52,035 nucleotides of DNA from Balneolaceae bacterium (GTDB taxonomy: Bacteria; Bacteroidota; Rhodothermia; Balneolales; Balneolaceae). Under the pieces are notes generated by a model that ran no database searches, was not told the DNA's origin, and saw nothing but the letters and a program-made list of their open reading frames with translations. Each line of letters starts with the position of its first letter. Position 1 is the first letter of the stretch. This document shows positions 50,484 through 52,035 of the stretch, one piece after another. The stretch spans positions 1-52,035 of the forward strand of contig REDS01000118.1 of the NCBI GenBank assembly GCA_007693395.1, in the 5' to 3' direction. The position numbers were made by a program, and so were the translations under genes.

Positions 50484-51485
50484 TCAATTATCCAAGGCAT
50501 ATTTGACCAATTTACCTTCTACTTGGTCATAAAAAAAGATACTACTACAGTCGTTTGTAAGTGCAAATTTATTGAATAAGCGATTTTCAAACGAGTAACT
50601 TTTGGTCTGTGTTAATTGATCATTTTTGTAGGATAATAATAATAACATATTTTGATGAATGCTTTCATGATCTTGTCCAACATAGGCTAAATACACAGAT
50701 TCAGTATTATTGCATACTTGTAAATCAGTTATAAGTAAAGGCCATGAGAGTTGTTGAAGTGAAGTTGAATTAAAATAATTCTCAACGTATTGTAAACGAT
50801 TCAGAAAGTATGGATCGCTAATCTCGGTATTGATTTTAATAATTTCGGGCTTATCAGATAGATGGATATTATAGAAATTTCCGCTTGTTTCATTTACGAT
50901 TAAGATTTTACCGGTTTCAATACCTTGGAAATAATATTGATTTCGGGCTGCAAGTTCATATCTGTTTGAACTGTTATTTGGATTGTATCGGTCGCCAAAT
51001 TCAACAATACTCTCATCTTCCAAATTAAATATATAGAAGGGGTTTTGGGATGATCTGTCAAATCCGAATAGCGAATTATTGAAAATGTAAAAACGCAAAG
51101 CTCTTTTTTTTAATAGGATATTGTTGATAAAGTCTCCATTCATACTGAAAATGGACAATCTTAATGCTCTGCCTTCTTCTACATAAATTTTTCCGTCTTT
51201 TTCCATGATATAAGAAGGCCAGGATAAGTCACCTGGCCCTCTGCCAGTTTGTCCAAATGAGAATATTTGATTAAGGTTATGGTCAAAAACATGTACCTGA
51301 CCTGAGCGTCCTTCAGTTGCATAGATTAGTGAATCTGCAAAGGTCAAACCCGATATTTGACCTATCATATCAGAGGAGAATGCAACAATTCTGTCAGAAC
51401 TAATTTTTTGCATCTCCTGTGCCGTTGCATATTGTACACATGCTACCAGAAAGACTATAAATAAAATCACCCGAGGTATAATCAT
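50484..51485 (-). CDS. 6-bladed beta-propeller secreted protein
   Basis: The ATG at 51485 is chosen: it gives a signal peptide (MIIPRVILFIVFLVACVQYATAQ), and GAGGGAG lies about 9 bases upstream. The frame itself extends 34 codons further without support. The mature protein of about 310 residues has propeller strands such as GLTFADSLIYATEGRSGQVH and IFSFGQTGRGPGDLSWPSYI, the typical opening of the Bacteroidota '6-bladed beta-propeller' group (NHL/TolB-like). Function unknown. The Cys-rich peptide gene lies 49 bases upstream on the same strand, so the two are likely one transcript. Confidence 0.83.
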   Translation of the reverse strand: MIIPRVILFIVFLVACVQYATAQEMQKISSDRIVAFSSDMIGQISGLTFADSLIYATEGRSGQVHVFDHNLNQIFSFGQTGRGPGDLSWPSYIMEKDGKIYVEEGRALRLSIFSMNGDFINNILLKKRALRFYIFNNSLFGFDRSSQNPFYIFNLEDESIVEFGDRYNPNNSSNRYELAARNQYYFQGIETGKILIVNETSGNFYNIHLSDKPEIIKINTEISDPYFLNRLQYVENYFNSTSLQQLSWPLLITDLQVCNNTESVYLAYVGQDHESIHQNMLLLLSYKNDQLTQTKSYSFENRLFNKFALTNDCSSIFFYDQVEGKLVKYALDN

Positions 51486-51534
51486 TATGTAAGCTCCCTC
51501 ATTTTTTGGACCACGCAAAAGTAAAGAGTTTCGG

Positions 51535-51891
51535 TTAAGCTTCACATATTTCTGTATCCGCGCAGTAACAACTTGTTGTATGACCACTGCAAGTTACACT
51601 ATCCTCATCTGCAGCACATCCACCGTCAGCCGGTCCCGAACACCCAACTGCACCGTGATCGGCACCATCAGGGCATTCTACAGAAACACTACATCTTGGA
51701 ACAAATAGCAGGTTGAAATCTTCAAAATCGATATGACCAAGAGCTAAATCTAGGTATAGTGAAGCGCATTCATTCTCAATTAGGGATTCTGGATTAGATG
51801 AAACTGTCTCTGCATTTAATTCTAATGTTGTGATAAGAGGAAATAATGAAAATATAAGGATAAGTAAATTGACAAGTGCTATTTTTATCAT
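51535..51891 (-). CDS. Secreted cysteine-rich peptide precursor
   Basis: The 118-residue protein has a hydrophobic leader (residues 5-24, ALVNLLILIFSLFPLITTLE) and then an acidic linker (EDFNLLFVPR near 57-66). A tail with eight Cys in its last 52 residues follows, at 67, 73, 84, 92, 101, 108, 110 and 116; one more Cys is at 42. The tail is Gly/Asp/Ser-rich. GAGG about 8 bases before the ATG may serve as the ribosome site. Small Cys-rich secreted peptides next to 6-bladed propeller genes recall the NVEALA peptides of Bacteroides, but the sequence is not a clear member. The role is unknown. Confidence 0.75.
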   Translation of the reverse strand: MIKIALVNLLILIFSLFPLITTLELNAETVSSNPESLIENECASLYLDLALGHIDFEDFNLLFVPRCSVSVECPDGADHGAVGCSGPADGGCAADEDSVTCSGHTTSCYCADTEICEA

Positions 51892-51940
51892 AGGAATACC
51901 TCATAATAGTTAGTTAATAAAGGATTAGGGATAAAGTAAT

Positions 51941-51949
51941 CCCCCCCCC
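51941..51949. repeat. Homopolymer tract of nine C
   Basis: A run of nine C on the plus strand (G9 in the minus-strand leader) lies about 50 bases before the Cys-rich peptide start. Tracts of this length can slip during replication and vary expression. Confidence 0.7.
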
Positions 51950-52035
51950 TTAAAAGGCAAATAAAAATTAAAATTTTTTAGGTTCTACAGGAAAGTTTGT
52001 GGGTAAAACAATGTACATATATTTTTCAACGAAAA

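Follow-up and report, generated by a model that had tools for sequence, protein, structure and literature searches.

The window, by which we mean the whole 52,035-nt stretch analysed (contig REDS01000118.1 of a Balneolaceae bacterium), carries near one end a gene for a small Cys-rich exported peptide and, directly downstream, a gene for an exported beta-propeller (Table 1). The sequence-only reading had described a 118-residue exported protein with nine Cys, eight of them near the end, separated by 49 bases from a propeller gene on the same strand, with SD-like sites before both genes; the open reading frame and the surrounding sequence confirm each of these features. Upstream of the peptide start, 144 bases remain before the contig ends at position 52035.

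Table 1. Features of the window, and Cys-rich peptides preceding other propellers of the same genome
Feature	Position	Strand	Properties	Basis
Cys-rich exported peptide gene	51535..51891	(-)	118 aa, 9 Cys, ATG start	ORF
SD-like GAGG ahead of peptide gene	51892..51905	(-)	7 nt from ATG	sequence
Exported six-bladed NHL-type propeller gene	50484..51485	(-)	333 aa, ATG start	PF17170 (borderline), AlphaFold2, Foldseek
SD-like GAGGGAG ahead of propeller gene	51486..51500	(-)	8 nt from ATG, inside the 49-base gap	sequence
Putative promoter TTTG-N19-TACTTTAT, G9 tract in spacer	51931..51961	(-)	possible phase-variable switch	sequence; layout shared with other pairs
Upstream peptide, own genome	L010:3191-3433		80 aa, 6 Cys; directly before propeller	
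Upstream peptide, own genome	L016:2502-2855		117 aa, 12 Cys; directly before propeller	
Upstream peptide, own genome	L012:298-531		77 aa, 4 Cys; directly before propeller	
Upstream peptide, own genome	L017:3075-3287 (G000:C9)		70 aa, 6 Cys; double-glycine-type leader LGREEMKNIMAGSG	

The peptide and propeller products

The peptide begins with a hydrophobic, Sec-type signal (approximately residues 1-27) carrying an SPase I-like site, LNA/ET, at residues 25-29, which leaves a mature part of about 91 residues. One Cys lies at residue 42 and the other eight fall within residues 67-116. None of 3000 dinucleotide shuffles of a 549-base stretch yielded a stop-to-stop frame of at least 118 aa with at least eight Cys; 29 of the 3000 gave a frame of this length when Cys were disregarded. 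Searches of Pfam and NCBIfam returned no match to the peptide at E<=10, a PDB sequence search produced no relative, and its own genome holds no second copy. Homologues in other genomes, on which the sequence-only reading had counted, did not turn up when 129 genomes of the order were searched. At the sequence level the peptide is thus an orphan, and an AlphaFold2 model of the peptide alone was uninformative (pLDDT 52). Kinship with the peptide family of genomes G048 and G064 is not claimed, because 25 of 98 aligned residues are identical and the Cys are out of register.

The 333-aa propeller scores 22.1 bits (E=1e-4) against PF17170 (DUF5128, six-bladed beta-propeller), whose curated cut-off is 22.9; in the genome search the whole open frame reached 25.2 bits. 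A 367-aa version was discarded, as it would have to start at an improbable GTG located within the peptide gene. The AlphaFold2 model, built with 45 relatives, has a pLDDT of 74.8 and a pTM of 0.74, with low confidence at approximately residues 180-245. Its best PDB matches in Foldseek are NHL six-bladed propellers, 4zlr first (E=1.3e-12), followed by the exported Bacteroides propellers BF0058 (4raa) and BVU_1028 of DUF4221 (3s9j); further structural matches include the cobalamin-binding surface lipoprotein propellers 8okv and 8bmz, also from Bacteroides. As modelled, the product is an exported six-bladed propeller of NHL-like fold, and the earlier proposal of a secreted six-bladed propeller is borne out by the model and its structural matches, with a borderline profile score. 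Its N-terminus is compatible with either a lipobox (LVAC, Cys16) or an SPase I site (ATA/QE); among 212 related propellers, a strict pattern recognises a lipobox in at least 90. The closest relative in the order is 33% identical over about 107 residues. Plasmid records searched with the propeller gave no match, nor did a contig scan queried with it, although matches appeared when a closer propeller group served as query.

The putative promoter and its homopolymer

A run of nine C at positions 51941-51949 of the plus strand, G9 on the gene strand, lies 50 nt upstream of the peptide gene; the region delimited in the sequence-only reading, which ends at 51949, takes it in. Read on the gene strand, its surroundings are TTTG-CCTTTTAAGGGGGGGGGAT-TACTTTAT. 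Promoters of Bacteroidota consist of TTTG, a spacer and TAnnTTTG, and the element resembles such a promoter with the homopolymer placed in the spacer. G tracts of at least 8 are rare, with eight distinct cases in the 835 kb of loci examined. Five of the eight are situated shortly upstream of a gene for a peptide, a propeller or a small regulator, at about 50-60 nt in four of them; for L099, included in this count, the regulator likely starts downstream of the listed ORF start.

In 127 genomes of the order, the promoter pattern occurs at 11 sites and a reversed control at 2. Three of the 11 (the window, G048 and G064) lie 41-42 nt ahead of the ATG at which a Cys-rich peptide gene, followed by a propeller gene, begins, so that the pairs of G048 (L084/L217) and G064 (L220) have the same G-tract layout as the window. 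A fourth site precedes an AraC-like gene and then a Cys-rich peptide (L225). Since this layout is shared by several peptide-propeller pairs, putative phase variation of the pair by slipped-strand mispairing is a good guess. G-tract promoters were also seen before exported lipoproteins, about 350-370 aa long, which the propeller profile does not match (L215, L216, L218), two of which, L216 and L218, contain repeat-like stretches (EDAGRSW, SEDQG).

Recurrence of the pairing and relation to known systems

A profile search of the genome that harbours the window gave 16 PF17170 matches, and five of these propellers, that of the window included, are preceded by a small Cys-rich exported peptide (the other four peptides are listed in Table 1). 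The 12-Cys peptide and its propeller are themselves immediately preceded by L016:2852-3484, whose exported 210-aa product has a CxxC motif and weak matches (AhpC-TSA, SelL-related); it may be a dedicated thiol oxidoreductase. PF17170 is found at E<=1e-6 in 74 of 129 genomes of the order, and such propellers are frequent in Balneolaceae: 16 were counted here, and a single genome can have dozens of candidates.

The sequence-only reading had anticipated repeated co-occurrence with propeller genes, and this expectation held: over the order, an exported peptide lies upstream of 43 of 186 propellers, whereas of 225 other genes in the same loci 4 have one (odds ratio 16.6, P=2e-12). The enrichment persists when the controls are confined to secreted-looking genes (P=6e-6). 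Counts were made on 72 stretches plus the search loci, for propellers with readable upstream sequence; a peptide was scored if exported and endowed with at least four mature Cys. The contrast is understated, because two of the four control positives are L043, which precedes a PF17170 gene missed by the propeller profile, and L111, which precedes a C39 exporter. One of the 43, L108, is a probable false positive and was left out of the 50 pairs compared below. In other pairs, differences between related peptide genes are most numerous at third codon positions (55 versus 41 and 31; 34 versus 18 and 17; 36 versus 19 and 20; 42 versus 26 and 23), which indicates that the peptide genes of related pairs are real. 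For about three quarters of the propellers, no Cys-rich peptide could be recognised upstream, which suggests that such propellers can also act on their own or with peptides that escape recognition.

Among the 50 paired peptides, 29 are of the Sec type and 21 have a double-glycine-type leader. The number of mature Cys is even in 44 of the 50, without exception among the 21 double-glycine peptides; odd numbers occur in the window peptide (9), in G064 (9) and in G048 (7). Clusters of the double-glycine kind contain genes for a C39-ABC exporter, a VKOR-thioredoxin fusion, an HlyD protein and AraC-like regulators; taken together, these genes argue for peptides that are oxidised and released. The search for a C39 peptidase in the genome carrying the window was negative. 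The same genome does encode a double-glycine-type peptide (L017:3075-3287), whose exporter may lie in an assembly gap. When pairs are compared between genomes, the similarity of the mature peptides is correlated with that of their propellers (Mantel r=0.74, P=2e-4 for 29 Sec pairs; r=0.30, P=6e-4, n=21 for double-glycine pairs). Such linked divergence fits a specific partnership, but simple co-inheritance of an operon would produce it as well.

The arrangement is not peculiar to Balneolaceae. In other Bacteroidota families, 8 of 15 propeller loci have a Sec-type peptide with 4-8 Cys at most 65 bases upstream. Propellers of Gemmatimonadota, too, can be preceded by short Sec-type Cys-rich peptides (L177:3360-3572, L179:3577-3783, L182:3459-3686); to judge from these sequences, the pairing may cross phyla.

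NVEALA peptides had been said to be encoded near similar propellers. In the two genomes analysed, 9 of 11 NVEALA genes above the cut-off are directly followed by a propeller detected by profile; of the remaining two, one is followed by a DUF4221 protein, whose family is shown by a solved structure (3s9j) to be a propeller, and the other is separated from a propeller by another ORF. The window pair shares with these systems a small Sec-type peptide with C-terminal Cys directly upstream of an exported six-bladed propeller, a resemblance of context that is not a criterion for Pfam membership. The window peptide differs from NVEALA peptides in its longer mature part and larger number of Cys. As the earlier reading had it, the NVEALA motif is missing: the stretch after the signal reads LELNAETVSS, PF14055 gives no match to the peptide at E<=10, and it has no match anywhere in the genome. 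The window pair is thus, by its sequence, not an NVEALA member, yet it stands in the NVEALA-propeller arrangement. The earlier interpretation is supported in part: the pair behaves as a divergent counterpart of that system, the pairing recurring in NVEALA loci likewise; the propeller is a putative receptor and the two genes a putative single transcription unit. Recurrence across leaders, across families and in NVEALA loci leads us to view the window pair as one divergent example of a broad module.

The double-glycine peptides of Balneolaceae are likewise small, Cys-rich, exported and followed by a propeller of the same superfamily, whereas the window peptide has a Sec signal. Bacteroidetocins are proven toxins, four-Cys double-glycine peptides that require a PCAT and a thiol oxidoreductase (PMC6671954). 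Their locus and the Balneolaceae double-glycine clusters contain the same kind of kit for exporting and oxidising small Cys-rich peptides, but bacteroidetocin loci have no propeller gene; with its Sec-type N-terminus, in a genome lacking a C39 peptidase, the window peptide does not belong to this class. The propeller resembles DUF5128/PF17170 proteins (BF0058, BVU_1028) in fold and exported location, although its sequence remains borderline for the profile. A survey of Bacteroidales RiPPs does not mention propellers (PMC10352776). Our literature search, whose coverage left out most subscription journals, found no paper on NVEALA or DUF5128, no description of a peptide-propeller pairing and no function for catalogued NVEALA proteins.

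Possible function of the module

While the two-gene module is well supported, its function is a matter of inference. The interpretation we favour, with a probability of roughly 0.45, is that of a cognate pair in which the peptide is most likely an antagonistic or recognition peptide and the propeller a means of self-protection. The first gene would give rise to a small secreted peptide, exported via Sec and probably stapled by disulfides, and the second to an exported six-bladed NHL-type propeller, probably a lipoprotein, that would bind the adjacent peptide as its dedicated partner. The peptide would act on other cells, as an antagonist or in the recognition of competitors, and the propeller would capture the producer's own peptide; the promoter homopolymer may switch the pair on and off. 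Across Bacteroidota, where it is probably widespread, the module joins a fast-changing peptide, on a Sec, NVEALA or double-glycine leader, to a constant propeller fold. We propose only tentatively that these pairs make up a polymorphic system of disulfide-rich exported peptides that extends over the whole phylum and is in part phase-variable; each peptide would have a beta-propeller of its own as neutraliser or receptor, and this propeller would be an undescribed kind of immunity or recognition protein.

Bacteriocin loci usually have one immunity gene directly downstream of one peptide gene. Antagonism with self-protection is favoured by the presence of one propeller directly after one peptide, by the fast change of the peptides, by the release and oxidation machinery of the double-glycine branch and by possible on/off switching. 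Against it speak the many propellers that have no recognisable peptide, the lack of a C39 peptidase in the genome, the odd Cys number of the window peptide and the additional route across the outer membrane that a Sec-exported peptide would require. Bacteroidetocins, moreover, come without an immunity protein (PMC6671954), and beta-propellers were not previously found among the immunity proteins of polymorphic toxins (PMC3482391).

In one alternative no killing is involved: the peptide could serve as a ligand, for signalling or self-recognition, with the propeller as its receptor or display platform at the surface or in the periplasm, which we consider rather unlikely. NVEALA peptides, which to our knowledge have no toxin role, precede propellers in the same way in Bacteroidales-type genomes, and the AraC-like genes of the double-glycine clusters and the Cys-rich peptide that follows a poly-G-controlled AraC-like gene (L225) also speak for it; yet transmembrane and signalling domains are absent from the propeller, and no kinase or anti-sigma partner is seen beside the pair. 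Alternatively, the peptide might never be released and act as a disulfide-stapled accessory or chaperone of a propeller-based surface complex engaged in adhesion or nutrient binding. The cobalamin-binding propellers among the structural matches, the Sec-type peptides that have no dedicated exporter and the odd Cys numbers, which could permit a bond to a partner, all agree with such a role. We nevertheless judge it unlikely, given that the double-glycine versions possess full peptide-release machinery and that the peptides diverge beyond detectable similarity while the propeller fold is kept. That an ordinary exported propeller should merely adjoin an unrelated or spurious small ORF is very improbable: the window peptide has no homologue found and most propellers have no such peptide, but chance is at odds with the enrichment (P=2e-12), the shuffles (0/3000), the third-position excess in other pairs and the promoter layout common to several of them.

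Sec, NVEALA and double-glycine Cys-rich peptides united by a single partner fold would constitute a large, uncharacterised and directly testable class. If the propeller binds and neutralises, or senses, its peptide, it would represent a new immunity or receptor fold, and the module a source of many disulfide-rich peptides.

Tandem propellers and double-glycine Cys-rich peptides are assembled, together with C39-ABC, VKOR-thioredoxin, HlyD and AraC-like genes, in seven large clusters (L063, L066, L070, L075, L078, L100 and L111); cluster L067 additionally holds a LanC-like gene. The large clusters resemble natural-product loci that lack annotation. A contig labelled as Pleurocapsales cyanobacterium LEGE 10410 (L164), probably a contaminant, bears propellers together with a Balneolaceae-type double-glycine Cys-rich peptide.
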